From Clostridia bacterium (lineage in GTDB: Bacteria; Bacillota; Clostridia; Oscillospirales; Acutalibacteraceae), in contig JAFXBF010000001.1 in assembly GCA_017516745.1 (NCBI GenBank), forward strand, positions 114,520 through 178,519: a DNA stretch of 64,000 nucleotides, read 5' to 3'. Positions within the stretch are counted from its first letter, which is position 1; every line of letters starts with the position of its first letter. Shown here in pieces: positions 29,526 to 41,857 of this stretch. The position numbers and the translations under genes were made by a program. The notes below the pieces were generated by a model, which ran no database searches, was not told where the DNA came from, and saw only the letters and a program-made list of their open reading frames with translations.

Positions 29526-29554
29526 TTGCATTTTGTGCAGGTTTCGTATATTAT
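29526..29554 (+). promoter_or_regulatory. Promoter of the glycoside hydrolase-aldolase-epimerase operon
   Basis: TTGCAT (29526-29531), 17 bp, TATTAT (29549-29554). TGCA-TTTTG-TGCA across the -35 edge could be an operator. Confidence 0.55.
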
Positions 29555-29580
29555 TAATAAGAATATGCGGAGGTTTTACT

Positions 29581-30843
29581 ATGGAACAGTTTATAGTTGA
29601 CCAGATTAAATACGGACTTAAATATCTCCCCGTAAATGCCCTTAAGGCAAAGCTAATTTCTTCCTCATCATCCGAAACGGTTTGTATGAGGGAAAAGCAC
29701 GGCTTTATCCGCGGCATTTGCCACCCTAATGAGAATTACGAGCAGATTAAAAACGCCGATATCGGCTGGGTAAGGTTTGACATTCCCTATCCCTTCGATG
29801 AAAACGGCAGTATCCGCGGGTGCTTTTACGATTTTAAGGAGCGCTGCAGGGGATATGCCGAAAACGGAATAAAGGTAATGGCTGTTTCGCCTAACCCCAA
29901 GGAATTTATTGCCGCAGGTGTCGATGTTACCGACAAGGCAAACGACGAAAAGGTTGCCGAGGTTTCGCGTTTTATGATTAATGAGCTGCGTGACGTTATC
30001 GGCGGTGTGCAGGTTGCAAACGAAATGGGTCTGCCGATTTTTACTCTGCCCGTTACTCTCAGGCAGGCGGCACACTTTATGGGCGTTACCTTAAAGGCTA
30101 TGTCTGAAATCAGAGGCGATATAATAATCGGCTACAATTCAACCTCACCCCAGGCTGATTTGCATTTGCTGATGAAGCCGTACCACCGCTATTGCGACTA
30201 TGTAGGTATGGATATCTATATGGGCTGCTTCTTTAATTTTCCGGGCTTTATGTGGTGCTTTGACACCTTGCTGGATTATCTGTGGGCCTATACCGGCAAA
30301 CCGATACTTCTCCAGGAATTCGGCTATATCAGCGGCGGTGCCGCAAAGTCACCCGAGGAAAAGAAAGCAATACTACGCAGATACGGTGCTGACAGCGAGG
30401 AGGAGGCAAAGCAGAATATTGAAAGCTTTGTAAACGCTCTTCCCGAAAGATTGGCCGAACAGGTGAAACTGCGTTCACACGGCAACGTTGAACGGTATGC
30501 GGACGTGCTTTTCAACAGCGACCTTGTAAACCACCTTTACACCGAATTGCCTAAATACACCAAAATTCCGGGCTGCGAGCACACTCCCGAGGGTCAGGCG
30601 AAGTTCTACCGTGAAATTCTGCCGAGGCTTTATAACAAGAAGTATCTTGTCGGTGCAATGATTTATTGCTACAGCGATTCGCCTATGTGCTACGTCTGCG
30701 GTCAGAACGAATGTCCCACCGAGACGCGTTGGGGCATAGTGGATTGTGACGGAAAAGAAAAACCGTCCTATTATGCAGTCAAAGAGGCTTTCGGCAAAAT
30801 TGCGGCTGAAAGTCCTGTAATAAATTTTAACGGAGAAAAATAA
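29581..30843 (+). CDS. Putative clan GH-A glycoside hydrolase (TIM barrel), cytoplasmic
   Basis: About 420 residues. Two active-site glutamates fit clan GH-A: acid/base in QVANEMG (end of strand 4) and nucleophile in ILLQEFGYIS (strand 7). WVRFDIPYPF and IIIGYNSTSP also fit barrel strands. I cannot assign a GH family; GH5- or GH42-like enzymes are nearest by motif. There is no signal peptide, so the substrate must be imported. Many Cys lie in the C-terminal half (CYSDSPMCYVCGQNEC), a possible metal site or just intracellular cysteines. ATG 29581 follows GCGGAGG. The stop overlaps the aldolase start by 1 bp (TAATG). Confidence 0.75.
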   Translation: MEQFIVDQIKYGLKYLPVNALKAKLISSSSSETVCMREKHGFIRGICHPNENYEQIKNADIGWVRFDIPYPFDENGSIRGCFYDFKERCRGYAENGIKVMAVSPNPKEFIAAGVDVTDKANDEKVAEVSRFMINELRDVIGGVQVANEMGLPIFTLPVTLRQAAHFMGVTLKAMSEIRGDIIIGYNSTSPQADLHLLMKPYHRYCDYVGMDIYMGCFFNFPGFMWCFDTLLDYLWAYTGKPILLQEFGYISGGAAKSPEEKKAILRRYGADSEEEAKQNIESFVNALPERLAEQVKLRSHGNVERYADVLFNSDLVNHLYTELPKYTKIPGCEHTPEGQAKFYREILPRLYNKKYLVGAMIYCYSDSPMCYVCGQNECPTETRWGIVDCDGKEKPSYYAVKEAFGKIAAESPVINFNGEK

Positions 30844-37529: not shown

Positions 37530-38387
37530 TTACTTGTTTTTCATATTTATTTTGCGCTTTGCCGCAACTCTGCACGCCCTTGAATAAGCTTTTGCAAGGT
37601 ATTGTTCAAGCGGCATTTCGCCGTATTTGTCGTTTTCGTGTCTGCCGGGCTTGGATTTTATGTTCAGCTCAAAGGTCATAATTCCCTTGTATCCGTGGTC
37701 ATCCAGCCTTTTGGCGATGTAATCCCAGTCTGCAATTCCGTCAAAAGGCAGCAGGTGCAAATCGTCCGTCCAGAAAATGTGGCCGCCGAAATCGCTTATA
37801 CCGAGGTTGTCGTTGAGGTGGGTTGCAATCAGCCTGTCGCCGTAAAGTGCGAGCAAGTCCTTTGAAAAGTTGTAGCACATCTCGTGTCCCGTATCAAGGC
37901 AGAAGCCTACGTTTTCTCTGTCCTTGAATTCCTCCATAAGTGCGGCGAGATATTCTTCGCCCTCGGTGTTTTCAAAGGCGATTTTTACGTTCCTTTTTTC
38001 TGCTTCATCAACAACTTTTCCGTACCTTTCAAGCCCTTTCTTAGAGGGCTTTCTCTCGTCGTCAAAGCCTATATATGTGTGGCAGACCATAACGGGAATA
38101 CCGTTTTTTTCACAAACCTCAACACATTCAATTAACTCGTCAACCGCAATTTTTGCAAGAGCCTCATCACCGTGCCACATTTCGTCGGATTTGTTGAACG
38201 GTGCGTGGATTGACTGGTATATCATACCGATTTCTTTAGCGTATTCGGCGTATTCTTCAATCGGGTCACCGCTTTTCCACGGCGTAAAAAAACCGTCAAA
38301 GCCTGCTTCCTTGAACATTTTAATCTGTGTTTTCGTGTCAACTCCGAATTGCTCATTAACACTCAAAGCCAAAAGCTGTCCGTACAT
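37530..38387 (-). CDS. Sugar phosphate isomerase/epimerase (xylose isomerase-like TIM barrel)
   Basis: 285 residues of the AP-endonuclease-2 TIM-barrel superfamily. Metal ligands fit: Glu in IAFENTEGEEY, Asp/His in FCLDTGHEM, His in ATHLNDN and Glu in MTFELNIKSK. The family covers many keto/aldo epimerases, so the substrate is not fixed. It is divergent from the GNAT/oxidoreductase fusion, whose promoter is back-to-back with its own, suggesting linked sugar chemistry. Confidence 0.88.
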   Translation of the reverse strand: MYGQLLALSVNEQFGVDTKTQIKMFKEAGFDGFFTPWKSGDPIEEYAEYAKEIGMIYQSIHAPFNKSDEMWHGDEALAKIAVDELIECVEVCEKNGIPVMVCHTYIGFDDERKPSKKGLERYGKVVDEAEKRNVKIAFENTEGEEYLAALMEEFKDRENVGFCLDTGHEMCYNFSKDLLALYGDRLIATHLNDNLGISDFGGHIFWTDDLHLLPFDGIADWDYIAKRLDDHGYKGIMTFELNIKSKPGRHENDKYGEMPLEQYLAKAYSRACRVAAKRKINMKNK

Positions 38388-38553: not shown

Positions 38554-40392
38554 ATGGCACAGCTCAAAATGTACTGGACGGCAGGCACACCCATCAGGGA
38601 AATGACTCTGCCCGAAGGCTATTCTTTCTCACAGTATGAGGACGAGTCTGACAAGCTCGCCTGGCTTGAATGCTGCAGAAACGGTCTTATCGGCGATGAT
38701 GACGGTATCGAAACCTACGACGACAGAATCAAATACCGTGATGACTGCAACGAGGAAACAGATCTTTTCTTCCTCGATTACGAGGGTAAGCACATTGCAA
38801 CCGTTACCGCAATTTTCCACCCCGAAAAGAACTGCGGCGAAGTTCATATGGTCGGTATGCTGCCCGAATTCAGAGGTAAGGGTCTTGGCAAATATCTCAA
38901 CAACAAGGCTATTGAAAAGCTCAACGCACAGGGCGTAAAATACATATTCCTCACAACTGACGAATGGCGCAAGGGCGCTGTCAAGAGCTACCTTTCATCG
39001 GGCTTCAAGCCCGTCGAGTACGACGAGGGTATGACCGAGCGCTGGCAGGCAGTTATGGCTGAATACGGCATAGACAGCCTTGATATGGTTGATGAAGATG
39101 CCGTTTACCTCAAGTCAATCTACCGTGAGGGCGTAACTCCTCCGGCAAAAATCAAAATAGGTGTTATCGGCGCTGGCAGAGGTCAGACTATGATGAATTA
39201 CTGCGTCAAGCAGGACAATGCCGAGCTTGTTGCTATCTGCGATAACCACAAGCCCTCTCTTGACCACGCAAAGGAAACCTACGGCACGGACAGCATCACA
39301 TTCTACGAGAGCATTGACGAATTCCTCACCCACGATATGGATGCCGTTGTTCTTGCAAACTTTGCAAATGAGCACGCACCGCTTGCAGTACGCTGTATGG
39401 AAAAGGGCTACCACGTTATCAGCGAGGTGCTTCCCGTACAGACAATGAAAGAGGCTGTTGAGCTTATTGAGGCAGTTGAAAGAACAGGCAAGACCTACGC
39501 CTATGCCGAAAACTACTGCTATATGGCCGCACCCCGTAAGATGCGTCAGCTTCACCGTGAAGGTGTCCTCGGCGAATTTGAATACGGCGAAGGCGAGTAT
39601 ATGCACAACTGTGAGCCCGGCTGGCACGGTTACACAAGAGCAGATGCAAACCATTGGCGCAACACAATGCACGCCTGCTATTACTGCACACATTCAATCG
39701 GTCCGCTTATCCATATCACAGGTATGCGCCCCGTAAAGGTAACAGGCTTTGAAGGCCCGTTCAATGCCCGTATGCACCGTATGGGAGCAAAGGCAGGCAA
39801 TATGGGTATGGAGGTCATAACCCTTGAAAACGGTGCAATACTCAAGAGTATTCACGGTGTAGGCCCCTCCAAGAACTCAATATGGTATTCAATCTACGGC
39901 TCAAAGGGCAGAATGGAATCCGCCCGTGAGGACGATTTTGAAAAAGAGCACGTTCACAACCTCTACGTCAACTGCGACAAGAACGAGGGCGACAACGACT
40001 CAAAGAGCGTTCTTGCCCCCACTTATGACGAGCTTTCCTACAAGTCCGCAGCATACGGCCACGGCGGCTCCGATTTCTATACAATGTATAATTTCGTTGA
40101 GTACCTCAAGGGTGACAAGTCTGCCGATATAATCGACGTTTACGAGGCGCTTGATATGTTCCTGCCCGGTATGTTTGCATACCGTTCGGTGCTTGCAGGC
40201 GGTATCCCGATGGATATTCCCAACCTTCGCAACAAGGAAGAGCGTGACCTCTGGCGTAATGATACCCAGTGTACAGACCCTGCCGTTGCAGGCGATATGC
40301 TCATTCCCAGCTACTCAAAGGGTAACCCCGATATTCCCGATTCGGTTTACGAGCGCCTTCAGAAGATGCTCGACGAACAGAACAAAAAGTAA
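38554..40392 (+). CDS. Fusion of a GNAT acetyltransferase and a GH109-like Gfo/Idh/MocA domain
   Basis: 612 residues. The N-terminal part (about 20-165) is a GNAT domain with the acetyl-CoA motif GMLPEFRGKGLGKYL (107-112 core) and YLSSGFKPV. After a linker (about 170-198), a Rossmann domain starts at IKIGVIGAGRGQ (NAD-binding). Instead of the usual EKP Lys motif there is SEVLPVQT (290-297). AENYCYMAAPRKM, LGEFEYGEGEYMHN and YCTHSIGPL (378-386) resemble GH109 glycosidases, which use NAD+ transiently. I infer an NAD-dependent activity on an amino- or acetyl-sugar. The fusion is one continuous frame with no internal start that has a Shine-Dalgarno. GAGGTGAT is the Shine-Dalgarno of the start. 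Confidence 0.85.
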   Translation: MAQLKMYWTAGTPIREMTLPEGYSFSQYEDESDKLAWLECCRNGLIGDDDGIETYDDRIKYRDDCNEETDLFFLDYEGKHIATVTAIFHPEKNCGEVHMVGMLPEFRGKGLGKYLNNKAIEKLNAQGVKYIFLTTDEWRKGAVKSYLSSGFKPVEYDEGMTERWQAVMAEYGIDSLDMVDEDAVYLKSIYREGVTPPAKIKIGVIGAGRGQTMMNYCVKQDNAELVAICDNHKPSLDHAKETYGTDSITFYESIDEFLTHDMDAVVLANFANEHAPLAVRCMEKGYHVISEVLPVQTMKEAVELIEAVERTGKTYAYAENYCYMAAPRKMRQLHREGVLGEFEYGEGEYMHNCEPGWHGYTRADANHWRNTMHACYYCTHSIGPLIHITGMRPVKVTGFEGPFNARMHRMGAKAGNMGMEVITLENGAILKSIHGVGPSKNSIWYSIYGSKGRMESAREDDFEKEHVHNLYVNCDKNEGDNDSKSVLAPTYDELSYKSAAYGHGGSDFYTMYNFVEYLKGDKSADIIDVYEALDMFLPGMFAYRSVLAGGIPMDIPNLRNKEERDLWRNDTQCTDPAVAGDMLIPSYSKGNPDIPDSVYERLQKMLDEQNKK

Positions 40393-40441: not shown

Positions 40442-41857
40442 TTATTTAACTTTAATTGTTGATACTTTGTCGGTGTAGTTTGCGTTATCGCTGAAGGGCT
40501 TATCGCTGCTCATGCCTATGGTATAAACGGTTGAATAACTGATTGAAGTTATATCGTAGGTGCTTGAACTTGCCTTGCACTCATACAGCCACATATTTGT
40601 GTAACGTGCCCAGAAACAGGTGTTGAACGGTACATATTCGGGGTCGGACTGGGTTGAACCGTGCGAATAAACGCCGAGGTTGAGGCTGTAGGAAAGAACC
40701 TGCTCGCTTGCACCCGTGTCGGCAATGTTACCGCCGTGACAGCCGTAATATTCGCCGCCAATGCGAATTATCGAACCGCCGTCGTGTATTGTTGAAGCGT
40801 TGCAGGAATGGTTTTCGCTGTTGCCGATGTTGTAGGCTTTGCAGTCGATTTCCACGGCGCAAGGAATGGCGTTTTCATCGGTGTTCTTGTGGTAGTTGAA
40901 GCCGTCAAGATATGCGTTGTAAACCTCACATTCCACAAGGTAGGAGTTGCCGCCCGTAATTGTAAGTGCGTTACCCGTTTTACAGTCGTGGAAACGGCAG
41001 TTGTAAATGTAGATGTATTCATTTAAACCGAGTGTAGCATAAAAGCATTTGTTACCGCCGCTTATATCAAGGTTTTCAATATAAGCCGTATCGCTTGCGT
41101 GCAGGCAGGCACTGCCTTTCTCGTTTTCATTGATAAGACGTACTCTGCCAATGCCGATTATGTTTTTTCCTGCAATATCAAAGCTTGCGGAATAATGGTC
41201 GCCGTAGCGGTATGTGCCTTCAAGCAGGTAAATTGTTGTGCAGTCGCTTTCGGAAAAAGCTGCCCTGAATGTGCGCTTGGGAGACTCCTTTGTACCGGGG
41301 TTTTTGTCGTTGCCGTCGGGGGAAAGGTAAATCTCTTTGCCGCCCTTTATTCTGTGTTCTGTAATATCGAAATCTGTATAATATTCCCCGTAGCTCATTT
41401 TGTAGATATCGGGCTTGAGTCTGCTCTTGAACTCGGCAGGGTAGATGAACTTTGTGTGCTTGCTCTTGATTTCGTTGTAGCGTGAGTTAAGCTCTTCAAT
41501 TTCCTCAAAAACCTTGTCAACCTGCGAAGAGATACCGTTAAGCTGTGTCTGTATTTCGGTTTGCTTTTCTTCAATCAGGGAATGCTTTTCCTCAAAAACC
41601 GAGTGCTGCTCCTGAGCTTCGGAAAGCTTTTCTTCAAACACCGAATGCTGTTCATCTGCCTGTGAGTGTTTTTCGCCGTACTCGGAATTCTTGTCCAGAA
41701 AAACTGAATTCTGCTCTTTAATCTGCGAATTCTGCTCCTGTAATTCCTGTACCTGTTCCTCAAGTACTGCCATACGCTCTTCAATGGATTGGTCAACGAC
41801 AATATAACCCAAAGAACCCAGAATGGCAGCAAGTATCGTTACCATAAACTTTTTCAA
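40442..41857 (-). CDS. Membrane-anchored or secreted coiled-coil protein with a right-handed beta-helix domain
   Basis: 471 residues. A signal anchor (about 1-22) precedes a long coiled coil (about 25-135). Residues 41-103 are nine uninterrupted heptads of the form E-(K/Q)-(N/H/L/Q)-S/T-x-x-x, with EQHSVFE occurring twice; position 3 is mainly Asn or His and position 6 hydrophobic. From about 165 a parallel beta-helix of the pectin-lyase/DUF1565 kind begins (EIYLSPDGNDKNPGTKESPKR), followed by repeated turns. It may be a trimeric stalk carrying a glycan-binding or glycan-cleaving tip. No catalytic residues can be assigned. It starts 18 bp after GH35 and is cotranscribed with it. Confidence 0.8.
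   Translation of the reverse strand: MKKFMVTILAAILGSLGYIVVDQSIEERMAVLEEQVQELQEQNSQIKEQNSVFLDKNSEYGEKHSQADEQHSVFEEKLSEAQEQHSVFEEKHSLIEEKQTEIQTQLNGISSQVDKVFEEIEELNSRYNEIKSKHTKFIYPAEFKSRLKPDIYKMSYGEYYTDFDITEHRIKGGKEIYLSPDGNDKNPGTKESPKRTFRAAFSESDCTTIYLLEGTYRYGDHYSASFDIAGKNIIGIGRVRLINENEKGSACLHASDTAYIENLDISGGNKCFYATLGLNEYIYIYNCRFHDCKTGNALTITGGNSYLVECEVYNAYLDGFNYHKNTDENAIPCAVEIDCKAYNIGNSENHSCNASTIHDGGSIIRIGGEYYGCHGGNIADTGASEQVLSYSLNLGVYSHGSTQSDPEYVPFNTCFWARYTNMWLYECKASSSTYDITSISYSTVYTIGMSSDKPFSDNANYTDKVSTIKVK

Follow-up and report, generated by a model that had tools for sequence, protein, structure and literature searches.

A GNAT acetyltransferase joined to a GH109-like NAD-dependent domain in gut Clostridia, a candidate bifunctional enzyme of glycoside breakdown

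The 64,000-nucleotide stretch of a Clostridia genome analysed here (the window) encodes, in a single uninterrupted open frame from ATG to stop at 38554-40392 (+), a 612-aa protein in which a GNAT acetyltransferase half is followed by a half related to the NAD-dependent glycosidases of family GH109. We tentatively propose, with a probability of about 0.45, that this protein works in the cytosol as a bifunctional enzyme, acetylating and cleaving one and the same imported glycoside. The N-terminal GNAT would move an acetyl group from acetyl-CoA to an amine of the imported glycoside or of the sugar or aglycone derived from it. The C-terminal half (C-half) would be a metal-independent, NAD-dependent glycosidase using a GH109-type mechanism, in which C3 is oxidised, the aglycone eliminated, water added and a reduction completes the cycle; it would belong to a sister lineage of GH109 in which the sugar pocket differs. 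We infer that both halves are catalytic, cytosolic and directed to the same substrate, and both active sites look intact, judged by conservation of the acetyl-CoA loop and of the GH109 catalytic set.

The 612-codon frame described in the original prediction was borne out, and a count along the translation placed both of its motifs where it had put them, i.e., the acetyl-CoA loop RGKGLG at residues 107-112 (38872..38889, +) and the Rossmann NAD loop GAGRGQ at 206-211 (39169..39186, +). Further segments are EVLP (291-294), AENYCYM (318-324), LGEFEYGEGEYMHN (339-352) and YCTHSIGPL (377-385), the last three of which had been claimed as GH109-type and are present in the C-half. All five Pfam matches to the protein at E 0.001 are GNAT or Gfo models, including Acetyltransf_1 (PF00583) at residues 55-151 (54.6 bits, cut-off 20.7), GFO_IDH_MocA at 200-316 (56 bits, cut-off 24) and GFO_IDH_MocA_C at 336-522 (25.3 bits, cut-off 22.9). 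The AF2 model, made from 50 aligned fusions, has a mean pLDDT of 91.2 and a pTM of 0.85, with 14 residues below 70. Ten-residue blocks of the GNAT half (residues ~1-183; 38554..39102, +) reach pLDDT 85-97, and the junction (184-197; 39103..39144, +) is short and ordered, with blocks at 85-89 and a strand at 185-190, leading into the Gfo/Idh/MocA-fold, GH109-like half (198-612; 39145..40389, +). No signal peptide was seen by eye, and the first GNAT strand of the model starts at residue 4.

The first half is assigned to the GNAT superfamily by the PF00583 score above cut-off and by a loop that follows the acetyl-CoA-binding consensus R/Q-x-x-G-x-G/A. In an alignment of 50 fusion proteins, out of 71, the loop residues R107, G108 and L111 are invariant (50/50), as is Y146, which we take from its position to be the usual GNAT acid; G110 is kept in 47/50, and position 112 is G, S or A in 49/50. 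The closest solved relatives by sequence, a diamine N-acetyltransferase (E 4.5e-4) and YpeA (E 6e-4), are matched weakly, thus the substrate cannot be read from similarity.

Among solved structures, the sequence of the C-half is closest to the GH109 entries 6t2b (E 5.9e-17) and 2ixa (E 2e-15). The GH109 catalytic set of a Tyr, two His, Glu-Asn and Arg is invariant in 79/79 C-halves, 75 of which are distinct. Tyr349 (39598..39600, +) corresponds to AmGH109A Tyr226, the C2 base/acid; His380, in the segment Tyr377-Cys-Thr-His380 (39682..39693, +; Tyr, Thr and His each 79/79), corresponds to His259, the acid/base on the glycosidic bond; and His503, in the GHGG loop at 502-505 (40057..40068, +), corresponds to His404, the C3 base/acid, the roles being those given in the accessible part of PMC10755693. 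The numbering of 6t2b equals the chain index plus 25, with which VIA-align agrees by pairing model residue 198 with residue 66. Glu319-Asn320 (39508..39513, +) match NagA E149-N150 and Arg369 (39658..39660, +) matches NagA R213, and the equivalents of NagA E149, N150, R213, Y225 and T227 are all found in 79/79 rows. GH109 enzymes are held to oxidise the sugar at C3, eliminate the aglycone and, once water has been added, reduce the product, NAD acting as a catalytic cofactor (PMC10755693, in the part available). In the S. linguale enzyme the exchange H225A abolished activity, according to the accessible part of PMC6521355, and this histidine, as read from the printed primer, sits in a THG motif.

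The claimed absence of the EKP lysine was likewise confirmed, since EVLP (39424..39435, +) occupies the position of this dehydrogenase motif, and the NAD-binding Rossmann loop is present, with G206, R209 and G210 invariant (50/50). EKP is found in 13 of the 19 Gfo proteins of this genome, and the full set without the EKP lysine is confined to the fusion protein, the evident GH109 and one paralogue; another Gfo match (L146) has a GGHGG loop, but EKP is present and the rest of the set absent. Membership in GH109, in contrast to these features, did not hold. With comparison to NagA as a proxy for CAZy's model, the C-half scores 51 bits at 26% identity versus 305 bits at 44% for another protein of its own genome. 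The position of NagA Tyr307 is replaced in 79/79 rows (N 53, D 14, H 6, S 3, C 1, F 1, I 1), with Asn in the window protein, whereas the genome's evident GH109 keeps Tyr. On sequence grounds, the C-half is a lineage sister to GH109 with an altered pocket position, and not GH109 proper. A separate GH109-like lineage without a GNAT, in which the catalytic set is kept, was observed in the same genome (contig 26, L127:8900-10141) and at L045:7321-8445 (-).

The fusion itself is genuine. The same frame recurs in 61 of 79 homologous loci of Clostridia metagenome assemblies, and the search for other genomes with the same architecture found the full-length fusion in 7/97 relative genomes, the window's own included, which rules out an assembly join of two genes. 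The 79 loci come from GTDB genome contigs, from the best 80 of 228 matches, and some loci of the relative-genome and genome-contig searches are the same genomes, seen as identical rows in the C-half tree. Three of the 61 GNAT-then-C-half frames are interrupted by a contig end. The reverse order, C-half then GNAT in one frame, occurs at three loci (L100, L102 and L106; 604-631 aa), the two parts lie as separate genes of one cluster at four (L101, L112, L113 and L114), and 11/79 loci show a C-half but no GNAT of the same family in the available flanking DNA, which is short for some. The record titles assign the 61 fusion loci to Clostridia, Oscillospiraceae, Ruminococcaceae or Clostridiaceae, and many of the samples came from the gut of ruminants. 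In whole-genome samples the full-length fusion was found in 3/147 genomes of the order and in 1/398 of the phylum, the latter being that of the window itself.

In the tree of 81 C-halves, GNAT-first fusions form one clade (SH-aLRT 93) if L088_0 is counted, which is labelled as a C-half only and starts at contig base 1, where a fusion was probably cut. GNAT-last fusions form a separate clade (SH-aLRT 100), and in the GNAT tree their GNATs are likewise separate from the GNAT-first clade (95). These trees, in which the branches between the clades are weakly placed, are most simply read as two independent fusion events with opposite domain order. The C-half tree and the catalytic counts omit 15 loci that are near-copies or cut, together with rows lost to ORF choice, score and length limits; 18 of the 65 window and genome-contig loci with a one-frame fusion are absent from that tree, as are the C-half homologues of L017-L039. 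The GNAT tree was built without 13 of those 15, without L011-L014, which are four copies from the same genus, and without one of the seven places that have a standalone GNAT. Joining in both orders, together with the unfused neighbouring genes, argues for a functional link between the halves and points to a single pathway for both. The original prediction that one polypeptide might both process and acetylate an amino sugar is thus supported in its fusion and its functional link, but not in GH109 membership or in the amino sugar.

Each half also occurs on its own. Six standalone GNATs fall inside the GNAT-first clade, where the starred branches of the GNAT tree require at least three changes. 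At a syntenic locus in genome G008, which keeps the TIM-barrel, M28, GH78 and GH35 genes, a GNAT 79% identical to that of the window ends in a stop codon, and a search of 1.1 kb revealed no remnant of a C-half; genome G005 has a near-identical GNAT with a contig end shortly after. The GNAT therefore seems useful without its partner, and since C-halves occur without a GNAT of this family nearby as well, neither half strictly requires the other. Several neighbours of standalone GNATs were observed. A GH28-like gene (L124:2479-4550) overlaps the start of one of the same family, another is adjoined by a 536-aa fusion of a nitrilase-like domain with a glycerophosphodiester phosphodiesterase (L123:7546-9156, -), and in genome G025 the end of one is overlapped by a homologue of a 436-aa protein (window 29533-30843, +; L122:4335-5573) for which neither Pfam nor NCBIfam gave a match at E 0.001.

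Neighbours up to four genes away were counted at 63 of the 65 one-frame fusion loci, L056 and L077 being displaced by antisense ORFs, and only for families with a chosen seed protein. An MFS_2 sugar symporter is the commonest (23/63), followed by an epimerase-like SDR (18/63, all in a single syntenic arrangement), a TIM-barrel isomerase-like protein (12/63) and a second Gfo protein (11/63). DUF4838, GH2, GH78 and aldo/keto reductase proteins were found at 4/63 each, a second SDR type at 3/63 and GH35 at 1/63, the window's own locus; none of eight catabolic families lies near 21/63. In the window the isomerase-like type is the divergent AP_endonuc_2 TIM-barrel gene (37530..38387, -; Pfam 108 bits), a neighbour in the window's close kin. 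The neighbourhood had been cited in support of a sugar pathway, and this theme persists, although of the genes then named GH35 and GH78 lie near few of the fusions. The proposed amino sugar turned out to be a guess; by gene content the setting is one in which a sugar compound is taken up and broken down, and nothing in it indicates an amino sugar in particular. Aminated sugars are hinted at most clearly by the gene run L101:218-9857, which holds a Gfo protein, a DegT/DnrJ/EryC1 aminotransferase, a heparinase II/III-like protein, two amidohydrolases, a C-half, a GNAT and another C-half; L113 repeats the succession of Gfo gene, aminotransferase (a homologue of that in L101), C-half, GNAT and C-half, and L114 has a GlmS-like gene downstream. 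Two further observations concern neighbouring DNA and related domains. The product of the window gene at 40442-41857 (-), 471 aa long, contains a stretch of short repeats (EKHS/EQNS-like); it resembles helix-rich proteins weakly and matches no Pfam family at E 0.001. On contig 1 of the same genome an AP_endonuc_2 TIM barrel is fused to a Gfo/Idh/MocA oxidoreductase (L126:8612-10651, -; 679 aa).

Alternatively, the C-half could be a sugar dehydrogenase making a keto sugar that another enzyme aminates and the GNAT subsequently acetylates, resembling the WbpB/WbpE/WbpD logic. The runs at L101 and L113 would suit such a pathway, as would the second Gfo protein near the fusions, and in the fold comparison the C-half ties with dehydrogenases, so that fold alone cannot separate the two activities. 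We nevertheless regard this as unlikely, because the C-half has no EKP lysine and carries the full GH109 set, with both the His of the GHGG loop and the His equivalent to the acid/base on the glycosidic bond, and no homologue of the L101 aminotransferase was found in the vicinity of the 63 one-frame fusions. It is similarly doubtful that unrelated cytosolic activities were tethered for co-expression, with the GNAT as an amine detoxifier not acting on the glycoside. The persistence of the GNAT after loss of the C-half, its nearest solved relatives and the C-halves with no GNAT of the same family nearby speak for it, but two fusion orders and separate-gene neighbours would hardly be expected of unrelated functions.

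A sugar-responsive acetyltransferase, in which sugar binding to the GH109-like domain would regulate a GNAT that acetylates proteins, in the style of Candida Ngs1, seems very unlikely to us. Most bacteria are not known to have eukaryote-type histones. The domain logic is the same, in that the glycosidase-like domain of Ngs1 binds GlcNAc and turns on its GNAT, but Ngs1 is without hydrolase activity, according to the part of PMC5063960 available, and here the glycosidase set is invariant. Least credible of all is a true GH109 alpha-N-acetylgalactosaminidase with an appended GNAT; the closest solved sequences and the conserved catalytic set agree with it, but the score far below that of the genome's evident GH109, the replaced Tyr307 and the shortened NagA loops do not. 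Within the bifunctional enzyme that we favour, a narrower version has the GNAT N-acetylate the terminal amine of an amino-sugar glycoside, which the adjacent NAD-dependent glycosidase would then accept and cleave. We consider this version quite improbable; if it is true, the C-half founds a family next to GH109 and the HGSNAT/NAGLU logic is condensed into one bacterial enzyme.

Compared with known systems, the C-half shares with GH109 (NagA 2ixa; AmGH109A 6t2b) the Gfo/Idh/MocA fold, the NAD loop, the missing EKP lysine, the Tyr/His/His set, the GHGG loop, Glu-Asn and Arg, and differs in its 22-26% identity, replaced Tyr307, shortened NagA loops and attached GNAT. In the GH188 NAD-dependent sulfoquinovosidase ArSqgA (8qc3), Lys107 lies at the sugar C3-OH and Glu163 replaces AmGH109A Tyr226, according to the accessible part of PMC10755693. 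Lys107 is probably the lysine of the EKP motif, and unlike ArSqgA the C-half has Tyr349 and, in EVLP (291-294), Val at the place of this lysine.

The HGSNAT and NAGLU pair of lysosomes is alike in logic only, i.e., acetylation before glycosidase cleavage. NAGLU cleaves the terminal sugar of heparan sulfate after acetylation by HGSNAT, and in contrast to the fusion protein the two are separate proteins, HGSNAT being a membrane acetyltransferase. Its acetylation of the terminal glucosamine of heparan sulfate is described in the accessible part of PMC11015392.

As in human O-GlcNAcase (OGA) and Candida albicans Ngs1, a glycosidase-type domain and a GNAT stand in one chain, but the Pfam matches are to GNAT and Gfo models only, with neither a GH84 nor a GH3 domain. 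O-GlcNAcase (GH84 with a GNAT-like domain) belongs to another GH family and has the opposite order, and according to PMC3919268, in the part available, its GNAT-like domain is probably no classical acetyltransferase. Ngs1 joins a GH3-like domain to an active GNAT; it is fungal, also of opposite order, and its GH3-like domain, without hydrolase activity, is a GlcNAc sensor (PMC5063960, likewise in part). Our searches of open-access literature brought up no report of the present fusion. A second type of glycosidase-GNAT fusion was seen in these bacteria, with a GNAT N-terminal to a GH78 alpha-L-rhamnosidase on contig 15 of the same genome (L125:5052-7391, 779 aa) and a GNAT-GH78 fusion a few genes from a GNAT-last fusion (L100:12841-15405, -; 854 aa); for their GNATs, other GNAT models of Pfam give the best match. 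The joining of glycosidase-type domains to GNATs is thus already known, and what appears new here is the different glycosidase type with both sites apparently intact. If our proposal is right, it adds an uncharacterised lineage of NAD-dependent glycosidases and an acetyltransferase built into a glycosidase, and O-GlcNAcase and Ngs1, whose glycosidase-GNAT architecture is puzzling, gain a bacterial counterpart in which neither site seems to have been lost.
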